24,650 nucleotides of DNA from a virus: positions 1 to 24,650 of the IMG/VR virus record IMGVR_UViG_3300028920_000878; one strand, written 5' to 3'. Of this stretch, positions 6,025-22,215 are shown one piece after another. How positions within the stretch are numbered: position 1 is the stretch's first letter; each line of letters begins with the position of its first letter. Below the pieces are notes generated by a model. It did not search any database. It was not told the DNA's origin and saw only the letters and a list, made by a program, of their open reading frames with translations. The position numbers were made by a program, and so were the translations under genes.

Positions 6025-7602
6025 TTATGAAGCGGCGGTTATATTTGTGGCGGCCTGAGTTGCATTGATCGCATCTACTGCCGTCTTAAGATTATCAACA
6101 GCAGTTTTAAGTGCGGCAAGGTCAACTACAGCTGCGTCTATTTGAGCGTTGTTGGCGTCAACAGCGGTTTTAAGAGCATCAAGGTCTGCGCGGGCAAGGT
6201 TGTATTCTGCTCCGCTTGGGGTTGTCGCATCTGCCCCTGTGCCTGCGGTATGCGTCATTGCAGCAGCAGCAGCTGGATTTGTTGCTGTCATTGCAGCACA
6301 AGCAGCAGGGTCAGGATTATGTGAATCCTGAACGAAATTTCCGAGCCAATCCCATTGCGTATTGCTGATTGTAACAGAACCGATATTTTGTATCTGTTGC
6401 GCTTCTGATGCAGTGATCGCGCCGAGTTCGTCACTCATAGCATCAAGTTTCGTTTTGTCCAGCTTCGGCATTAGACCATGAGCAGATCCTGTTGCGTCCA
6501 GGTCAGTATTATCCTCAGGAGCGGCAAAATCATCAAGTTTGATTGCTTCTGCCTTTGCTTCGTAATAGTTATCCCACGAATTAACAAAGGTCAGTTCTTT
6601 CTGATTATCGCTGTCAGCAGAGTCCTTCATCACGATTTTGTCAGCATCTATAGGAGTTGTCTTTGCGCCAACACCGCCGATTTTACTGTTTATATACGTC
6701 CATATAGCCGTCATTGCAACGCTGTATATAGCGCCCTGGGAATCGTTGTGAATCAGCATTTCATCCGCATCATCAACAGCCTCACCTATATCTGAAAGGT
6801 CAGATATAATTTCATTCATCTCTTTCCTGACGCCCTGAGTGCTTGGCACAGCGCCTGTAGAGCCTGTTGCGAAAGAGTCAACAAGACTTGGGCCGTCTGC
6901 AAGAGCGGACGCTCCCGACCATACAGCAAGAAGTCCCGGGGTTGCTCCGCCCCCTGGCGCGGTTGCCTGAATCCCTAAGTGGGTTATCAGGTCTACGAGA
7001 GTTATCTTTTTCTCCACGCCCGCCTGTATGATATACAGTTCATCCGCGTCATTAGTTGTTACCACAGGAGTAAGAGCACCAACATACGTCTTGAGAGTTG
7101 CATACAGAGCGTTTGAGAAGTTGGTAAATGTGGTATACTTTGGCGTTGATCCCTCAACGACAAGTATCTTATCCGTGCCAGCCGGAGTTACCTTCGGCGT
7201 TTTATCAGATATATCAAGAATCTGCGGATCAAGTTTCGCAAGGAAATAGGTTGCAAGATCATCAGCGGTAGTGGTTTTCTCTGTTGACCCGTCTTTGAGC
7301 GGGATCACATCTGCATCATCTACTGAAGGTTCATTCGCTTTTCCCCACATTTGATTCAGGAAATACTGCTTAACCAGGTCAGTATCAACCGGCTTAAGGT
7401 CTGATCCGTTCTCAAGGACCATTATACTATCCGACCCGTCATGGGTTACAATCGGGGTTATGGCCTCAAGCGCAGCCTGGACAAAGGCTAAAATCTGATT
7501 AACAGATATACTTACCGGATTTGACCCATCAGAAGCAGGGAATATCTCAGTTCCTGAAAGGCTTGCATCGGGAGTCATTTCTGAAGGTTTTATATTTGCC
7601 AT
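6025..7602 (-). CDS. Repeat-rich tail fibre protein
   Basis: 525 aa; ATG at 7602 shares one base with the TAA of the 32-aa gene upstream (TAATG). The start MANIKPSEM followed by LSGTEIFPASDG is the usual opening of tailed-phage fibre proteins. About seven copies of a 35-50-residue repeat follow, of the form DADxIxxxxGxxxKxTxxDLxxYL, centred near residues 20, 58, 98, 145, 187, 280 and 322. Residues 370-420 carry the fibre signature SAHGLMPKLDKTKLD and then QNIGSVTISNTQWDWLG. An Ala/Met/Thr-rich segment and a heptad-like end (LKTAVDxxNAQIDAAV, residues 478-515) suggest trimerisation. It probably contacts the host surface. The fibre assignment is strong; receptor and oligomeric state are inference. 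Confidence 0.85.
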   Translation of the reverse strand: MANIKPSEMTPDASLSGTEIFPASDGSNPVSISVNQILAFVQAALEAITPIVTHDGSDSIMVLENGSDLKPVDTDLVKQYFLNQMWGKANEPSVDDADVIPLKDGSTEKTTTADDLATYFLAKLDPQILDISDKTPKVTPAGTDKILVVEGSTPKYTTFTNFSNALYATLKTYVGALTPVVTTNDADELYIIQAGVEKKITLVDLITHLGIQATAPGGGATPGLLAVWSGASALADGPSLVDSFATGSTGAVPSTQGVRKEMNEIISDLSDIGEAVDDADEMLIHNDSQGAIYSVAMTAIWTYINSKIGGVGAKTTPIDADKIVMKDSADSDNQKELTFVNSWDNYYEAKAEAIKLDDFAAPEDNTDLDATGSAHGLMPKLDKTKLDAMSDELGAITASEAQQIQNIGSVTISNTQWDWLGNFVQDSHNPDPAACAAMTATNPAAAAAMTHTAGTGADATTPSGAEYNLARADLDALKTAVDANNAQIDAAVVDLAALKTAVDNLKTAVDAINATQAATNITAAS

Positions 7603-9297: not shown

Positions 9298-9507
9298 CTA
9301 CTTCGCGTTAAAGTCACAAGAAGTATAAGAACCCTCATTTATATAGAGGGTTGTGCCGGCGCCGCCGTCCGTTTTGATAAACGGACAGCCTTTGGTATAT
9401 CCAGCCGTCCCATCGGTAGGAACAGTTGTCCCTGAAGCGTGTTTCGTGCCAGGAAGCCTGAAATAACCAACTGCATAGCTAAGAACCTTACATACTCTCT
9501 GAATCAT
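9298..9507 (-). CDS. Small Gly/Thr-rich virion protein, 69 aa
   Basis: The start is ATG at 9507 with SD AAAGGAG 8 bases upstream. The sequence contains GTAGYTKGCPFIKTDGGAGT followed by LYINEGSYTSCDFNAK. This pattern, a Gly-rich turn, K-G-C-x-F, T-D-G-G-A-G-T and a closing SCDFNA, recurs as a small protein or as the C-terminal part of larger phage head, fibre or decoration-type proteins. No catalytic residues or membrane segment are present. A short beta-structured virion component is likely. The family motif is recognised but its exact job is not known to me. Confidence 0.7.
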   Translation of the reverse strand: MIQRVCKVLSYAVGYFRLPGTKHASGTTVPTDGTAGYTKGCPFIKTDGGAGTTLYINEGSYTSCDFNAK

Positions 9508-10446: not shown

Positions 10447-11463
10447 CTATGCCTCAATAATGATACCATTGACAGTTAATGTATACGGCCTGTAAGCGTA
10501 GTTAGCAGGACGCTGTTCGTACTCTCCATGAGTACCTACATTTCCGAAAAACTTTTGCTGCTGTTTGCGATCCCTGGCAACGTCAGACTTGAGCCTTTGC
10601 AGGAAATTCTGATAATGGATTCCATATTCATCATTTATGATCGCATCTGCTTTTGCAAGGCAGCTGAGAGTAAGAAGTTCTGCGAATTTCATGGTTCCAA
10701 CAGGGAAAGTCGGAGTATCGTCAAGCGCATCAACAAGAATCTCAAATTTATACCCTAAAGTCCATGCTGCGTCAGGAGTTGGATAAAACATGATCTGCCA
10801 TCTTTGACCGGTCAGGCCGTCACCTATTGACTTAAGCCTTAATCCAGCCACCCGGGGCGTGTCATACTCAACCTCTGCGGACCTCAGGGCCCTGATCTTT
10901 CCCTCTCCTACGTCAACGACAACAGGCAGCTCCTGATCGTCAGGTTGGAAGTGCATGCGGCTTGAGATCATGCGTCCGAATCCATCCGGTAAATCATAAT
11001 CTCCATCGTGATACAGAGTCCAATCATCTTCACCAGCAGCAACATCATCACCAACTACTGTTAGCTGAGTGTCAGAGTCATACGAGGTTATGGTGTATGT
11101 TACCCCAGCAATTACCAGCTGCCCATGATCTACTGCCCAGGTAGAGGCGTTAGAGAACGTATCCCCACCTGACAATGTGAGCGTTCCGCTTGAAACCTCA
11201 ATAGTTCCTGTAGTAGCATCACCTGTCAGCGGTGCTTCAGTTGTTATTGTGGTAACAGGCTTCAGGAACGTCCACTCATAACCTTCTTCAACGCCGTCAA
11301 CAGACGGAGGATAAAGATACTGCTTATACCCCTCCTTAACGGCTCTGTCGCACAATGCTCGTTCATCGGCTGTTAATGTGGTATAATCAGCCTCTCCATA
11401 ACATAAATGCGAAACGGCGTTCATTAGGTTTACATGGGTGATTGATAATGTTGATTCAGCCAT
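10447..11463 (-). CDS. Head-tail adaptor/connector protein with inserted beta-module
   Basis: 338 aa; ATG at 11463 lies 8 bases inside the preceding gene. Helical N- and C-terminal parts flank a beta-rich insert. The N-terminal helices include DERALCDRAVKEGYKQYLYP (33-52) and then YEWTFLKPV. The insert (about 72-150, with GTLTLSGGDTFS and VTYTITSYDSDTQLTVV) is followed by YDLPDGFGRMI, a long hydrophilic region, and a C-terminal helix GIHYQNFLQRLKSDVARDRK. This order is typical of a widespread podophage adaptor-type protein that binds under the portal. It lies between the capsid genes and the nozzle-like gene, as expected. The recognition is by motif and position, so adaptor is likely but not certain. 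Confidence 0.7.
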   Translation of the reverse strand: MAESTLSITHVNLMNAVSHLCYGEADYTTLTADERALCDRAVKEGYKQYLYPPSVDGVEEGYEWTFLKPVTTITTEAPLTGDATTGTIEVSSGTLTLSGGDTFSNASTWAVDHGQLVIAGVTYTITSYDSDTQLTVVGDDVAAGEDDWTLYHDGDYDLPDGFGRMISSRMHFQPDDQELPVVVDVGEGKIRALRSAEVEYDTPRVAGLRLKSIGDGLTGQRWQIMFYPTPDAAWTLGYKFEILVDALDDTPTFPVGTMKFAELLTLSCLAKADAIINDEYGIHYQNFLQRLKSDVARDRKQQQKFFGNVGTHGEYEQRPANYAYRPYTLTVNGIIIEA

Positions 11464-14896: not shown

Positions 14897-15259
14897 TTAG
14901 GTGGGATCACTGAAACCACCATCAAAATCCTTTGCGCCGACAAGATTAGCATAGTCCTTCCTATGCTTCCTACTTTCAAATACAGGATGCCCCATTTTAT
15001 CAAAATAAGTAGGCACTCCATTTTTCCGTGCGAATTCGGTATATTCCTTACGCTGTGACGGGTGAACAGCCAATGCTCGCGAAATCATTGGATATGTGCT
15101 AGGGCATTGCGTCCTCTGATGGTCCCATTCATACTCAAGATCTCTTGGACAAAACGTACCATCCTCCAGGGTTATTCCGTCCTTAATATCATCGTATTCC
15201 CTGATTTCATACTCGCCTTCAATAATAAACCCGTCAGGGTGTCTGAAACAATATCTCAT
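14897..15259 (-). CDS. Small conserved protein between portal and scaffold, 120 aa
   Basis: ATG at 15259 overlaps the portal stop by one base (TAATG), so it is probably translated by re-initiation after the portal. The N-terminus MRYCFRHPDGFIIEGEYEIR is short and beta-like. Two more Cys occur at about 37 and 52. A segment near 65-110 contains AVHPSQRKEYTEFARKNGVP, then HPVFESRKHRKDYANLVGAK, with a DGGFSDP end. Proteins with this HPSQ and xSRxHRKxYxxLxG pattern occur next to portal genes in other podophages, and I recall them only as hypothetical. A head-assembly or scaffold-associated role is a positional inference. Confidence 0.7.
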   Translation of the reverse strand: MRYCFRHPDGFIIEGEYEIREYDDIKDGITLEDGTFCPRDLEYEWDHQRTQCPSTYPMISRALAVHPSQRKEYTEFARKNGVPTYFDKMGHPVFESRKHRKDYANLVGAKDFDGGFSDPT

Positions 15260-17028
15260 TATGTATTCCCCCTGCCAATAGCATCTATTTCAGATGATTG
15301 CGCTCCGCCGCCCAGGAGCAGCTGCTGAAGCGTAACCTCTTTGCCTCCTCTTGTTGCGCCAGGCCTGTTTACCCGCTCATACGTCCGCGTTGTGTTAGCC
15401 GGCTTTCCAAAAGGCTGAGAGTTGCCGGCAGGCTGATCAGTAGGCATAAGGGCATTCGGATCAATAGACACAACAATATTCTTAAGCTCAGGCATATTGC
15501 CATAATCAGCGAGAATATTGATAAACTCTCTAGCGTCAAACGTTACGCCCTGAGATTGCAGCATCGGCATCATCGGAATTATAAACTGAGATACCAGCTG
15601 ATTCAGCTTCTGAATCTTCAGGCCTGGAGCATCGTCCCTCATGCTCTGAGGCACAATATTGAAATTAAAATCAAGGAAATCGCCTTTTCTCGTTTCTTCG
15701 CTCCATATTATGGGAACAGAAACGTCAACCCCGCCCGGGGCCCTTCTTTCAATGATCCTCTCGCGGATCGGATCTGTCCATTCGTACCATGCGACCTGTT
15801 TGAACAGTTTTCTCGCAAATTCCGTCATTGCGTCCTGCATATCTGCAAGCTGGGCGCTAGCCGATTGAGCAAGCATCTTATCCTGAGTTGCTGTTTCAGC
15901 CTGCGGAGAAAGACCGCCAAGAGCGTCAAGGTTTCCAGCAGACCAGGAGAAGAGCTCTTTTACCTGGAGGAACAGAGCAAACGTATTCTGATCTATGCCG
16001 CCAACCTCTATTGATTCGGGTTTCTGCCCGTCCCAATAGATACCCTCTCCATCATGAGCTGTTTTGAACCTGTTTGCACTATCTTCACTGTTAAACCCTG
16101 CAACCCTCTTTTGATTCCTGGCCTGGTAAGCCATTCTGCGAAACAGGCTGTTTGCTAGTTCGTGGATATTCTTCAGGAGGCTGAACGGAGGCAGAGGCAT
16201 TGCATTGTCAGGAACGTCTGTAAACCAAAGGCAATGATAAGGACCTTCTTCATCTGTGTCATATTCAACGACATCAAGAGGAACGCGACCAGGACGCGAC
16301 TTTATGTAAGTGACGAGCAGACGTTCGTTGCGCAGCCATATATCCTGAAGCTCAACCTTTCCATCAAAGTTATCGTCACCGGTAAGAGGTTCGTGAGAGA
16401 GAGTTTCCCCGCGATCCGTTGCTTCATCGTCTTGAAGCTCAAGGTCATCAACTGTTACGTCCCTGGCCTTTGCTCCATATCTCCGGTCAAACTCCTCTTT
16501 TGATATTGTATATGTATCGCCCTCAAAATACGGCTTATCAGCACCCCTGGCCGACATATCACGAACATAATCATCAAAACTGACCCTGCTGGCAAAAACC
16601 TGAGTAATATCAATTTCAGACCCGGCAAGATCTTCAGATCCGACATACTCAGTACCCATTTTCACGCAAGCCAGGGGAGAGAACAGAGCCTCAGTTGCGC
16701 ACTTCCTGAGAAGATCGCCGAGCATCATTTCATCTGCTGCTTGAGCGCAAGCAAGCTCAAGTTCGGCAGCCTGCGGCCTTAAATCCTTGTAAGGCGTTGT
16801 AACATTGGCTGTCGGAGCGCGAACCGCAAGCTGCCGAACATAAACATTGGTGGCTTGCGCTATAAGGTTCAGATACACATTCTTCGCCTCCGCATCGTCA
16901 CTATATTCGCTTCCGACAAAGATACTCAGCAGTTCTGTCCGTTTTTCTCTGAAAACAGCCATTTTACGCCGACTCTCGTTTACCGCGTTTACAAGGTTTT
17001 TAAAATCTTCAGGTTTCCTTGGATTCAT
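15259..17028 (-). CDS. Portal protein
   Basis: 589 aa, ATG at 17028 with SD AAGGA about 10 bases upstream. Length, acidic character and layout fit podoviral portal proteins. A helical N-terminus (residues 5-40, NAVNESRRKMAVFREKRTEL) is followed by a mixed domain containing ACVKMGTEYVG and VELQDIWLRNERLLVTYI (225-242). A long helix around 345-415 (QVKELFSWSAGN, then QDKMLAQSASAQLADMQDAM) would line the channel. The end is low-complexity and Gly/Gln-rich. Twelve copies are expected at one capsid vertex, forming the DNA channel and the docking site for terminase and the adaptor. Scaffold and capsid genes follow. It is separated from the terminase by three unrelated genes, which is unusual. Confidence 0.85.
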   Translation of the reverse strand: MNPRKPEDFKNLVNAVNESRRKMAVFREKRTELLSIFVGSEYSDDAEAKNVYLNLIAQATNVYVRQLAVRAPTANVTTPYKDLRPQAAELELACAQAADEMMLGDLLRKCATEALFSPLACVKMGTEYVGSEDLAGSEIDITQVFASRVSFDDYVRDMSARGADKPYFEGDTYTISKEEFDRRYGAKARDVTVDDLELQDDEATDRGETLSHEPLTGDDNFDGKVELQDIWLRNERLLVTYIKSRPGRVPLDVVEYDTDEEGPYHCLWFTDVPDNAMPLPPFSLLKNIHELANSLFRRMAYQARNQKRVAGFNSEDSANRFKTAHDGEGIYWDGQKPESIEVGGIDQNTFALFLQVKELFSWSAGNLDALGGLSPQAETATQDKMLAQSASAQLADMQDAMTEFARKLFKQVAWYEWTDPIRERIIERRAPGGVDVSVPIIWSEETRKGDFLDFNFNIVPQSMRDDAPGLKIQKLNQLVSQFIIPMMPMLQSQGVTFDAREFINILADYGNMPELKNIVVSIDPNALMPTDQPAGNSQPFGKPANTTRTYERVNRPGATRGGKEVTLQQLLLGGGAQSSEIDAIGRGNT

Positions 17029-17052: not shown

Positions 17053-18843
17053 CTATAGCTCCCAAATTGCCTTGCTGGCTTCATTGGGGATTTCTTTTAC
17101 ATATATTCTGTGTCCGGTAGTGATCTCATACTTTACATCACCCTCCATATTCTCTGTTTCAATCAGATCAAGTTCAAAATATCCTTCAGAATTCGGAGTT
17201 ACAGTTATCAGCGTTTTTCTTATCAGAATATTATCTTTATATTTCACTCCGTCTTTTGTCAGGGTTGCAGTAACAGCAGCCGTACTCGGGTTACCTTCCG
17301 AATCAGTCTGATACCCGTAAACAGTACAGATTGAAATATCGTCAGACGCTTCACCGCTGAAGTCATACTCAACAGTTACCTGATCTAACTCAGGAGTTGT
17401 TGACCCATCATTTGAATGGAGAAAGGCTATAACAGTTACAGTCGTACCGAGAGAAGCAAACGATGCCTTGTTCGTTTCTATCTCTGCTGCCGTGTTACTC
17501 TGAGCATACGTTCCATTGGAAGAACTCCATGCTGCGCCATCCCAATAGTAATCAGTTGATTCTTTCCTGAGAATATACTTGATTTCATCTGAACCTGTCT
17601 TTGAAGCAGTTTCATCAAATCCTTCAAGCCCCTCCATCCTGATTGTTGAGTTGAACGTTACTGTCGGGTCATCGTCAGGATATATTTTACCGGTATAAGT
17701 CAAAACATTATTGCTGACCGCATTCTGCGTACCGCCATCGGGAAAAACGACAGAAACATCTATATCATCTGCAACTGTAAGACTTCCGATATTAGTATTT
17801 ACATCAGCAGCAGAACTTGCCTGTGCATATGAATCGTCAGAAGCAGCCCATGCAGCCCCATTCCAATACTCACCATTCAAAATATAACGGGGAGTACCTG
17901 TTCCTGTTTCAGCAAATGCCGTAAGAGCCTGTATTGCCTCTACACCGGAATATGAAAACTGAGGAAGATCAACCTTTGTTTCTGCATATAAATCATCCGC
18001 TAAAGTATAACCCGGAGTATAATTCGCAGTATGCTGAACTGTATTAAAAACAACAACATCATTCATATAACAATCTGAAGTAGCAGCTCCGTTAATGCTT
18101 GAACCAATAACCATTTTTGTTGCTGTATTTGACCTTGTTCCAATCGCACTCTTTGTTGTAGATTTTTGAACACCATCAATAAATAACCTTACATCTCCTG
18201 TTGTAAAATCCATATTTAATTCAAACTCATACTCTGTTCCGGCTACACCGGTTGTCCAAGTGTCAAAGAAGGTGTTTAGTATTGCAGCACCGGAAGAATT
18301 ATAACATATAAAATAAAGTCTTGCCGTATTGGAATGATACATATAAAGTAAATTGTTATTACCGGCAGCCATTCCAATCGCAAATAAATAACGGTTTGCT
18401 GCCGGTGTTCCGGAATAGTTAGGAGTGTACCGCCAACGTATTGTTCCGGTCTGCACAAAGTTGGAATTGCCAACGGCATCATAAACAACGTTCTTAACAC
18501 CACCACCTCTTAAATCCAATTTTCCTCCGCTTACACTTGCCCCTCCTGCTGCCGTTCCCTTTAATGTCCCGTCACCCCAACTACCATCTATATCTGTTGT
18601 GTAGGTCGCTCCAAAAGTAGCATTTGCTTGGCTTTGACTTTTCTGCTGAACCTGACCGCTATCAAATTCCGCTTTGTCCGAATCATAGGTGAAATCAGTA
18701 TCGTCAGCATAATCCTCTGTAAAGGTTTCCCCTGCGTTGTCGGTAAGTTTCAGTTGAGCCTTACCGCCCGTGATCTCAACCTTGTCGGTATCGTAGGTAT
18801 AGTTCGTAGGAGTCGTAAAAGTATATGTTGCTAAATCGCCCAT
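17053..18843 (-). CDS. LamG-domain adhesin-like virion protein
   Basis: 596 aa, ATG at 18843 with AGGA about 8 bases upstream. Residues 15-70 carry two short repeats (TYDTDKVEITGGKAQLK and TYDSDKAEFDSGQVQQK). Residues 75-290 look like a LamG/concanavalin-like jelly roll, with TIRWRYTPNY, NNLLYMYHSNTARLYFICYN, TEYEFELNMDFTTGDVRLFI and TKMVIGSS. Then come two related repeats (residues about 319-386 and 422-495), each with YIL, a YWxGAAW motif, a YAQ motif and an alternating strand pair. The C-terminal 100 residues look like a beta-sandwich. There is no signal peptide. LamG modules usually bind glycans, so a receptor- or surface-binding virion appendage is likely, but attachment to the virion is inferred from operon position. 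Confidence 0.75.
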   Translation of the reverse strand: MGDLATYTFTTPTNYTYDTDKVEITGGKAQLKLTDNAGETFTEDYADDTDFTYDSDKAEFDSGQVQQKSQSQANATFGATYTTDIDGSWGDGTLKGTAAGGASVSGGKLDLRGGGVKNVVYDAVGNSNFVQTGTIRWRYTPNYSGTPAANRYLFAIGMAAGNNNLLYMYHSNTARLYFICYNSSGAAILNTFFDTWTTGVAGTEYEFELNMDFTTGDVRLFIDGVQKSTTKSAIGTRSNTATKMVIGSSINGAATSDCYMNDVVVFNTVQHTANYTPGYTLADDLYAETKVDLPQFSYSGVEAIQALTAFAETGTGTPRYILNGEYWNGAAWAASDDSYAQASSAADVNTNIGSLTVADDIDVSVVFPDGGTQNAVSNNVLTYTGKIYPDDDPTVTFNSTIRMEGLEGFDETASKTGSDEIKYILRKESTDYYWDGAAWSSSNGTYAQSNTAAEIETNKASFASLGTTVTVIAFLHSNDGSTTPELDQVTVEYDFSGEASDDISICTVYGYQTDSEGNPSTAAVTATLTKDGVKYKDNILIRKTLITVTPNSEGYFELDLIETENMEGDVKYEITTGHRIYVKEIPNEASKAIWEL

Positions 18844-18852
18844 GTGTTAATC

Positions 18853-19995
18853 CTATGACACTGTGATTGCATAAATATACCCATCAGAATTCGGTCCCTG
18901 AGAAGCGAGCACATAAAGAGTTTCTGTCAACTTCACCAATTTACTCTGAGCCGTAAAAGTCGGATTCGTATTAAAAACTTCAATAGTGTCCAATGCTGAA
19001 ATATTATAATTTCCATCAATCTCAAGAATCCACGCATTGTGTTCCTCAACAGGTACACCGCCAGCTGCGCAAACCAATAGATGCGTTTCGTCTATTTTAG
19101 CTACAGAACAATGAATCGTGTTCTTATTTGAGAACGCATAATTATCCTTTTCCACACCCGTAGGATTCGTTGTATCAATGGTTCTTGCTATACCATTTAC
19201 CGCTGAACCTCTGTGAGCGACCATATAATGCGTCGCATCTATCGCCGCCACTCCGCAATATCTCCCCTCAGTTGTATCAAAGAGTATACTTGAAACTTCT
19301 GTCATTTGATATGAGCCATCAAACTCAATAACCTTTGCATACCCGTCCACTGAATTCGTGTAACAGGTTACAATATGAGTATCATCAAGTTTTGCAATAT
19401 CACAATAAGTCGGCAGACCTGTCACAGAAATACTGTCAAGCTCCTGTATGTTCTGATAGTTTCCATCCCATGTGAAAACCTCAATATACCCGTAATCAAT
19501 AACAGCATCCATTTTGTAATGAGCAGCAATATGATTGGAGTCCAACAGACACGCAGAAGCATATTCAGCAGACCCGGCATGGTGATTTAGAACAGATTTT
19601 TGCGAAATTGGAGTATAATCAGCATCAGTTTCATAGATGTAAATGTAATTTCTGTTGATAAGCGCAAAATGATGAACAGTTGGCGAAGAATCTATCGCAA
19701 CAAGAGCGCATCCCTCTGTATCAGGACCGCTTGCAGGACCGGCGACACTACTTACAAGTGAAATACTTGAACCATCAGAAGCGACTTCAAATATCTGTAT
19801 AATATTCTGATTGCCAAAAGTAACGACATGAGTTTCATTCAGAGCGCAGATACAGATGTCAACTCCCGTTGTTGTATCACATAACGCATTATCACCGACA
19901 GCAAGTTCATAATTAAGCCCACCGCCGCCGCCGCCAAAGGCGGAGATTTTTACGTTACTGAACCCACCACCGATTTTTATTGGAGAGAAATCCAT
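18853..19995 (-). CDS. Predicted seven-bladed beta-propeller protein
   Basis: 380 aa; ATG at 19995 follows directly on the preceding TAA, with no clear SD, so it probably depends on re-initiation. After a short head (MDFSPIKIGGGF) and a Gly6 run (21-26), the protein has seven repeats of about 49 residues. Each is marked by a C-x-[IV]-A-x-[IL]-D-x-T-H-type strand, at residues about 48, 96, 148, 198, 247, 296 and 351. The best copies are CDIAKLDDTH, CGVAAIDATH and CSVAKIDETH, and each is followed by a Y-x-x-[VI]-[IF]-E-[IF] strand. This periodicity predicts a seven-bladed propeller. The protein is acidic, and no catalytic residue is evident. It lies next to the LamG protein and may form part of the same appendage or head fibre. 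Confidence 0.75.
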   Translation of the reverse strand: MDFSPIKIGGGFSNVKISAFGGGGGGLNYELAVGDNALCDTTTGVDICICALNETHVVTFGNQNIIQIFEVASDGSSISLVSSVAGPASGPDTEGCALVAIDSSPTVHHFALINRNYIYIYETDADYTPISQKSVLNHHAGSAEYASACLLDSNHIAAHYKMDAVIDYGYIEVFTWDGNYQNIQELDSISVTGLPTYCDIAKLDDTHIVTCYTNSVDGYAKVIEFDGSYQMTEVSSILFDTTEGRYCGVAAIDATHYMVAHRGSAVNGIARTIDTTNPTGVEKDNYAFSNKNTIHCSVAKIDETHLLVCAAGGVPVEEHNAWILEIDGNYNISALDTIEVFNTNPTFTAQSKLVKLTETLYVLASQGPNSDGYIYAITVS

Positions 19996-20298
19996 TTATC
20001 GTAATGCCTGACTAAAAACAGTATAGTACAGATCAATCCCTGACGCAAGATACACACTTATTTCGGTAGTCCCACCCTTAACAGGATAGACTTCCGGTAT
20101 ATCCTGTTTCAGATAAGGCTCGGTTGCTGTGGCATCGTTTCCATCCCAGGCCATAGGAGCATCACCTCCACTTGCGATCAGACGCACATGAGTTGCGCCT
20201 TTAGCAAGCGGTATATCCTGGGCAGCATCACCGCCGGTAAGTTTCCCTTCAGCAATATAGGTCATATATCCTACAAATTTATCAACATCAAGTCCCAT
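19996..20298 (-). CDS. Unknown small protein, 100 aa (structural-type)
   Basis: ATG at 20298 has SD AAGGAG 7-8 bases upstream, and the TAA abuts the propeller gene ATG. The sequence begins MGLDVDKFVGYMTYIAEG and continues with beta-like stretches (THVRLIASGGDAPMAWDG, TTEISVYLASGIDLYYTVF). It is acidic, Gly-rich and small, with no membrane segment. The abutting stop and start suggest that it is made in ratio with the propeller protein, so it may be its adaptor or base that attaches to the virion. I do not recognise the family, and the role is inference. Confidence 0.65.
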   Translation of the reverse strand: MGLDVDKFVGYMTYIAEGKLTGGDAAQDIPLAKGATHVRLIASGGDAPMAWDGNDATATEPYLKQDIPEVYPVKGGTTEISVYLASGIDLYYTVFSQALR

Positions 20299-20319: not shown

Positions 20320-22215
20320 TTACCAATCATCGTATTGTCGTTGGGCCAGCTCCATTTCTTCTTGTTTGAGCCTCCATGCAGGACTCATCCAGGGTGCTTC
20401 CTTTTCATCCTGGTCAGGCTCTTTATAGTTTATGATCCGCAGCCTGCTTACTAGGGCATCAGCAATAACTTCGTCACCATGCGCCTCTCTTGCGCCTGTG
20501 GGGTCCTGAGAATTCAAAGCGGCAGAATGCTCAACCTTTCCCCCGGGTTCTACTATGAATTGCAGCGTTTCTTTCATGCCAGCTTCAGAGAAATTGATGA
20601 AATTCCTCCCCTCAAGCGCGGCACGATAGTCACGCAGAACAATAGCGCGATCCTCAGGGTTAAGGTAGTAGCCAGGTTGATCAGAAATACGCTTCCTGAA
20701 CTTCTCCTCGTCCGTGCGGTAATACACTTTTGTATACCCTACTTCTACCACACGTTTTGTAAAGACGCGGCCCGATGCCCCGCTGGCGTCCCATATGAGC
20801 TTTCCGCCGTTGAACCACTTAGCCAAAGCAACAGTTAATTCAGCAAAACGTCCAGGCTCTATATTCGGACTTTTCCACATGGCAACTTTCTGACCTGTTT
20901 CAAGATCGCAAATAGACGTTACCGAGTTTGACGCTCCTGTTCCGAAAGATACGTCAGAGCCTATGCCGAATTTCTTTCCTTTGAAATAATCCTTATTGTC
21001 AAGAATCGGATTGCTTCCAGGTATATTAAACCATAAATGCAGATTCCCTTTTGAACCAGGCTGGAATCCTTCAGGTTTCAGGGTAATAGGATCGTAAATC
21101 AGCTCACCCCTCATTTTCGCCGGCACACAATATTCAGCAATCAGCTTCTGAATAAATGATTGATCAAAGAACTGATACGCAGAACCAAGAAAGTCAATGT
21201 CAAGCTCCTGAGCGATCTCCTGAGGAGATACACAGCGTGAGCATTCGGTGTCATACCAGGGGGACCTGAGTTTGCCGTCAAGTATAAACGGGTAATCATC
21301 GGGGAATTTCATATCCTTAGGCTGTTCCCATTCCTTGCGCAGAACAGTTACATCACCTGAATAATCGTCAAGACGCTTAACTGTCATAGCCCCGTTTACC
21401 TTCTCGCTTATATACAGGCCAGCTGAGTAGATCGGGTGCTCTGACCAGTGCATTCGCCGAACTTTCGCGGCTGAATCATGAACGACTTCAAAAAAAGCGT
21501 TTGCAGCGCCTTGCGGGGTGGAGTTGAACAAACGACATTTGGTAGTGTCCCTGGAGGATTTAAGGACTTTATACCCATCGTTTAGCTCAAAGGCAGCATG
21601 TTCGTCAACCAACATAGCGGTGCGCCGGTCACCACGTCCGGCGTCACCTGTAGTTGACTCACCATCAATCACGCTGTTGGTGTCAGCATTCTTGACATGC
21701 AGCAGCCGGCGGTTCGGATCTCTCCACCCCGCCCACCGACCGGCGGGAAGTAACCATTTTGGTTGATTTTGATGGAGGAAATCAATCTTCCAAAACAGCG
21801 ACTTCGGGTTTCCACTCTGATCTACATAGTCCTGATTTCGTGAAATCAGCAGAAATGAAAGATCATAGCGAAAATGCCAAAACCATTCAATCACAGTTAA
21901 AGCCATCCAGGACGCACCCATAGTCCGCGACTTCGGCCAGGCCAGGTCAAAGCCTTTGTTTATCGCAGTACAGAATTCTCCTATAGCATCGTCCTGGAAA
22001 TCATAGGTGATAAACGGCTTGTTCGGAACTTGCTGATCTCTCGGATCATAGGTCCAGCAAAAGCCGTTAATGTAAAACAGCAGATCTTCTGCGCACATAC
22101 GATACGCAGCCTCAGCGAAAACTTCATCTCCCGCCGCCCTCGTAAGGAGATCGCGGCGCCATTTAAGGTTTTCGCTGAAATCCTTAGGTACTCCGCTGTA
22201 ATACGGGAAATCCAT
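20320..22215 (-). CDS. terL: Terminase large subunit (packaging ATPase-nuclease)
   Basis: 631 aa; ATG at 22215 overlaps the previous TAA (TAATG) with SD AAAGGA. The N-terminal ATPase domain has a deviant Walker A, PKSRTMGASW (94-103), a Walker B MLVDEH (201-206) and a coupling-motif candidate NSTPQG (231-236). The C-terminal RNase H-like nuclease domain shows three acidic sites: GSDVSFG (Asp421), IWDASG (Asp476) and HGDEVIADAL (Asp581). Order and spacing match tailed-phage large terminases, which cut concatemeric DNA and pump it through the portal using ATP. The product appears complete, with all expected catalytic residues. The gene belongs to the packaging block; the usual small subunit partner is not identified with confidence. 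Confidence 0.92.
   Translation of the reverse strand: MDFPYYSGVPKDFSENLKWRRDLLTRAAGDEVFAEAAYRMCAEDLLFYINGFCWTYDPRDQQVPNKPFITYDFQDDAIGEFCTAINKGFDLAWPKSRTMGASWMALTVIEWFWHFRYDLSFLLISRNQDYVDQSGNPKSLFWKIDFLHQNQPKWLLPAGRWAGWRDPNRRLLHVKNADTNSVIDGESTTGDAGRGDRRTAMLVDEHAAFELNDGYKVLKSSRDTTKCRLFNSTPQGAANAFFEVVHDSAAKVRRMHWSEHPIYSAGLYISEKVNGAMTVKRLDDYSGDVTVLRKEWEQPKDMKFPDDYPFILDGKLRSPWYDTECSRCVSPQEIAQELDIDFLGSAYQFFDQSFIQKLIAEYCVPAKMRGELIYDPITLKPEGFQPGSKGNLHLWFNIPGSNPILDNKDYFKGKKFGIGSDVSFGTGASNSVTSICDLETGQKVAMWKSPNIEPGRFAELTVALAKWFNGGKLIWDASGASGRVFTKRVVEVGYTKVYYRTDEEKFRKRISDQPGYYLNPEDRAIVLRDYRAALEGRNFINFSEAGMKETLQFIVEPGGKVEHSAALNSQDPTGAREAHGDEVIADALVSRLRIINYKEPDQDEKEAPWMSPAWRLKQEEMELAQRQYDDW

Follow-up and report, generated by a model that had tools for sequence, protein, structure and literature searches.

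The window analysed here, a stretch of 24,650 bases from the IMG/VR viral record IMGVR_UViG_3300028920_000878, comes from an uncultured podovirus, a short-tailed phage, with an SU10-type adaptor. Its late genes are read from the minus strand, beginning with TerL and continuing with s100, prop380, LamG596, portal, g120, scaffold, MCP, g358, g99, the adaptor g338, g69, the nozzle and the tail fibre. Of particular interest are the three genes between TerL and the portal, which an earlier note on this DNA had picked out; they are indeed present there, all on the minus strand, with the following coordinates and neighbours.

20320..22215, minus strand: TerL, the terminase large subunit (phrog_5989, E = 1.3e-7), upstream boundary of the insertion
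19996..20298, minus strand: s100, 100 aa, first gene of the cassette, with a strong AAAGGAG ribosome-binding site upstream
18853..19995, minus strand: prop380, 380 aa, with seven repeats of ~49 residues and a Gly-rich N-terminus that is modelled with low confidence
17053..18843, minus strand: LamG596, 596 aa, starting 9 bp after the end of prop380
15259..17028, minus strand: portal, assigned by its position between TerL and the scaffold and MCP genes, downstream boundary of the insertion
10447..11463, minus strand: g338, homologue of the SU10-type head-tail adaptor; the relatives' homologues match PF24175
minus strand: nozzle, 531 aa (phrog_376)
6025-7602, minus strand: tail fibre (fibre525), 525 aa

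The homologues of TerL in related phages are full-length and 55-66% identical, and those of the portal are 50-60% identical; the portal of the window gave nothing significant when searched directly against Pfam and PHROG. No match to MCP or portal was found among phage isolates, and the host is thus not assignable. Promoter and terminator scans of the window stayed at chance level. The GC content of prop380 and LamG596 is 41%, vs. 48% for TerL and portal.

Portal-based searches gave 9 close and 53 wider relatives; once duplicates had been removed by hand, 36 distinct contigs had both TerL and portal. The two genes are separated by 30 bp or less in 24 of these 36, by 138-527 bp in six and by 1-5.2 kb in another six, and in the closest relatives they mostly overlap, by 1-4 bp. 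The earlier expectation that TerL and portal are usually near neighbours thus holds within the phage's own lineage. In the window the spacing is 3291 bp, taken up by the three genes, and since TerL and portal abut in 24 of the 36 distinct relatives, the block represents an insertion here. The same junction carries other insertions of at least 1 kb in six relatives, four of which (L065, L066, L093 and L102) combine a small protein of ~90 aa with an adhesin or fibre-type gene. The junction contents of individual relatives are:

L065: a 90-aa small protein, a LamG protein of 525 aa (Pfam, 5.6e-15) and other genes
L066: small proteins of 96 and 101 aa and a repeat protein of 396 aa (period 44, z 9)
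L093 and L102: a small protein, then fibre-type genes
L079 and L095: a small protein and little else

Judged by its repeats, the 396-aa protein of L066 appears propeller-like, and it is otherwise unrelated to prop380. A further repeat protein is found in L075, where a leucine-rich/BspA-like repeat fragment, recognized by eye (2-553), lies immediately upstream of the portal.

L065, L066 (both copies), L079, L093 and L102 have small proteins of a single family, with leave-one-out E values of 4.5e-4 to 2.5e-23, and among 588 small ORFs from all loci this family is confined to the TerL-portal junction. The relation of s100 to it is at most suggestive: hhalign gives E 0.3, the family HMM does not list s100, and the W-D-G-x-D-x-T motif that links s100 with small junction proteins such as that of L095 does so at a score that is not significant. 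Homology to the small proteins of L002, L042 and L035 was considered as well and dropped, again for lack of a significant score. Neither tblastn against 50,697 phage records nor peptide-pattern scans of IMG/VR nor profile searches found a homologue of s100. From its sequence, s100 is probably a small all-beta protein, and it would be a small structural or adaptor protein of the cassette.

A gene-for-gene copy of the block occurs in no relative, only analogous cassettes, so that the search of related phages which the earlier note had proposed came back empty for the trio itself and turned up the same pattern built of different sequences. Given the differing junction cassettes and the non-significant scores of s100, it is the arrangement of a small protein with an adhesin that recurs and not the genes. 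The trio is unique to this contig, since neither s100 nor prop380 has a detectable homologue (for prop380, in tblastn against the 50,697 phage records and peptide-pattern scans of IMG/VR), and no account of this cassette turned up in literature searches.

The TAA stop of s100 immediately precedes the ATG of prop380 (..CGA TAA ATG..), so the abutment of the two genes noted earlier is real and fits their coupled translation. The repeats of prop380 are likewise borne out: its periodicity at lag 49 has z = 4.9, where no lag in 300 shuffles exceeded 4.4, and seven units can be set out by eye, the first three of them weaker. An AlphaFold2 model, made from the single sequence with no alignment, has a pTM of 0.73, a mean pLDDT of 66 and 28 strands, i.e. 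7 x 4. Foldseek matches it to WD40-type propellers in the PDB with a probability of 1.0; these are mostly eukaryotic and hence evidence of fold only, and at the sequence level no relation to a solved structure was detected. Repeat statistics and modelling thus agree with the earlier suggestion of a propeller, and prop380 is predicted to be a seven-bladed beta-propeller with four strands per blade, which would form the second binding module of the cassette. The Asp-box motif S-x-D-x-G-x-x-[WFY] is absent from it.

The architecture of LamG596, as defined by profile scans, consists of two N-repeats (residues 6-32 and 38-71), a LamG/ConA-like domain (80-280), two W-domains (313-383 and 388-495) and a C-terminal domain (505-596). 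Its match to Pfam Laminin_G_3 (PF13385) has E = 2.9e-4 and, at 21.5 bits, lies below the curated cutoff of 27.6; Laminin_G_3 is matched at E<=1e-3 by 10 of 25 members of the LamG596 family, the best at 1.9e-7. The model built from the 25-sequence alignment (pLDDT 92) has a lectin domain of ConA-like type, after which come repeat domains, so the LamG-like domain that had been proposed for this protein does show a jelly-roll/ConA-like fold in the predicted structure. Against the PDB, Foldseek matches the lectin domain with a probability of 1.0, the best fits being CBM40 (TMt 0.6-0.66) and the ConA-like domains of sialidases. In the viral library BFVD it matches LamG proteins and virion, neck and baseplate proteins; the LamG protein of Ralstonia phage RSL2 and the gp14 neck and baseplate proteins of cyanophages share its ConA-like jelly roll, at only 10-19% identity, and differ in that LamG596, with its N-repeats, LamG domain, W-domains and C-terminal domain, is a separate gene at the TerL-portal junction. 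No GH16 motif was found in the lectin domain. Crude hydropathy, the only test applied, revealed no segment resembling a signal peptide or membrane span, which makes a secreted or membrane moron unlikely.

A profile search of IMG/VR for the LamG596 family, which is uncharacterised and of virion type, gave 41 loci. In many unrelated phages its genes adjoin portals, terminases, proteases and capsid genes of many types, and in four unrelated phages with differing terminase and portal families a member lies between TerL and the portal:

L016 and L049: between Terminase_3 and Phage_portal
L047: between a gpA terminase and a lambda-type portal
L028: TerL assigned by phrog_15, portal inferred from position and size

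In a genome collection the LamG profile had a single match, a domain in the 2087-aa ORF of a Woesearchaeota contig (L056, 2113-8373), where the LamG module is 38% identical over the domain.

L031 and L054 carry the N-repeat/LamG/W module within the SU10-type head-tail adaptor itself; these adaptors match PF24175 after the insert with E values of 5e-16 and 3e-5, that of L054 falling just below the curated cutoff. L052 and L053 have a W-domain within the nozzle (phrog_376, 1e-125). The two nozzles (L052 1012-4014, L053 1355-4387) are T7 gp12-like and also contain E1_FCCH-like domains. All four fusions lack the C-terminal domain of the LamG596 type, which 27 distinct stand-alone members have, and the simplest reading of this distribution is that it serves as a non-covalent anchor; it is missing also from about six stand-alone members. 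The adaptor of the window, g338, has an insertion of ~70 residues after 'PVTTITTEA' that five aligned relatives lack, and the loop of the adaptor seems able to take up domains. The adaptor of L014 (11746-12828) has an extra N-terminal domain, with a 393-aa beta-rich gene directly upstream.

We consider it likely that the three genes make up a horizontally exchanged accessory cassette of virion adhesins at the TerL-portal junction, most plausibly attached at the neck. From the gene order, the cassette would be expressed together with the head genes, with s100 and prop380 made by coupled translation and LamG596 after them. The latter would form a multidomain rod, in which the N-repeats are followed by a ConA/LamG lectin-like head, the W-domains act as spacers and the C-terminal domain as anchor. 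The fusions suggest that this anchor may bind the virion non-covalently, most plausibly at the neck formed by portal and adaptor. The three proteins might work together, providing weak, low-affinity contact with glycans of the cell surface or the environment before or beside the tail fibre. Of the appendage suggested in the earlier note, an adhesin-type cassette is supported and attachment near the portal is plausible, in view of the LamG modules in the L031 and L054 adaptors; attachment to the capsid, binding of carbohydrate and assembly of the three proteins into a single appendage receive no specific support.

A position on the capsid shell, where the proteins would decorate the head like Hoc-type head fibres rather than sit at the neck, seems unlikely to us. 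Ig-like and lectin-like domains are known on phage capsids, and the LamG genes of L002 and L043 come after a major capsid or capsid-region gene. Against this, the covalent fusions of LamG596-family domains to virion proteins are confined to the adaptor (L031/L054) and the nozzle (L052/L053), with none to a capsid protein. Dispensable Ig folds bound to the capsid, as in Hoc of T4 and similar head decorations, are thought to provide weak adhesion to glycans; in contrast to Hoc, no capsid-binding domain is recognised in the cassette proteins.

It is also rather improbable that the cassette supplies components of the main tail fibre or tailspike, or swappable tips for it, and owes its location to migration of fibre genes. 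In favour of this are the fibre-type genes at the same junction in L093 and L102, and also in L080, and the LamG-family gene that lies beside Baseplate_J/DUF2612 genes in L032. However, the window retains a fibre gene apart from the cassette, downstream of the nozzle, and so does L065, where a LamG block at the junction coexists with a homologue of fibre525 located beyond the nozzle; this supports an additional role for the cassette, distinct from the fibre at 6025-7602, as the earlier note had it. With family members near capsid genes in L002 and L043 and near baseplate genes in L032, the neck need not be the only site of such proteins.

A split glycan-degrading enzyme of sialidase type, with prop380 as its catalytic part and the adjoining LamG596 as its lectin part, might be read from the best PDB matches of the latter and is most improbable, the propeller of prop380 being seven-bladed, WD40-like and devoid of Asp-boxes, where sialidase propellers are six-bladed and have them; with the GH16 motif absent from the lectin domain as well, the glycosidase reading is rejected.

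Returning to the neck-attached adhesin cassette, the adaptor has a known precedent as a holder of fibres. In the Kuravirus SU10 the portal-bound adaptor is the dock of the trimeric long tail fibres (PMC9509320). The family of this fibre dock, PF24175, includes the relatives' g338 and also the adaptors of L031 and L054 that carry LamG inserts; the LamG protein of the window differs in having a gene of its own, whereas the adaptor of SU10 holds fibres. Propellers, too, are known among receptor-binding proteins of phages, five-bladed in gp45 of phi11 and seven-bladed in gp131C of phiKZ (PMC4901313); in these the propeller is part of a virion component for which surface binding is proposed, whereas prop380 is a stand-alone gene without a stem. 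An accessory virion adhesin is of a known kind, and what is less ordinary is the recurring cassette site and the presence of LamG inside head-tail adaptors.

A broader version of this reading, which we regard as possible and put forward tentatively, would make the TerL-portal junction a general site for cassettes of accessory virion adhesins, both in this lineage and in tailed phages unrelated to it. Modules would be swapped there, in some phages having been captured covalently by the adaptor, and an adhesive neck collar of propeller and lectin would make a third layer of adhesion beside tail fibres and capsid decorations. If true, the interval between TerL and portal would be a predictable place to seek accessory host-contact proteins, which receptor searches limited to tail-fibre loci would overlook, and the natural adaptor fusions would point to the neck as a hypothetical location for the LamG/W-domain family.

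One more gene near the adaptor deserves mention. In relatives, the counterpart of the 69-aa protein g69 (9298-9507) forms the N-terminal portion of far larger proteins, and for this reason g69 looks like a stand-alone tailspike anchor domain. Larger loci of this type are found in L012 (16789-19506 and 21050-21763) and L006 (17116-17832); one of the L012 proteins has 905 aa and, by eye, a beta-helix-like middle.
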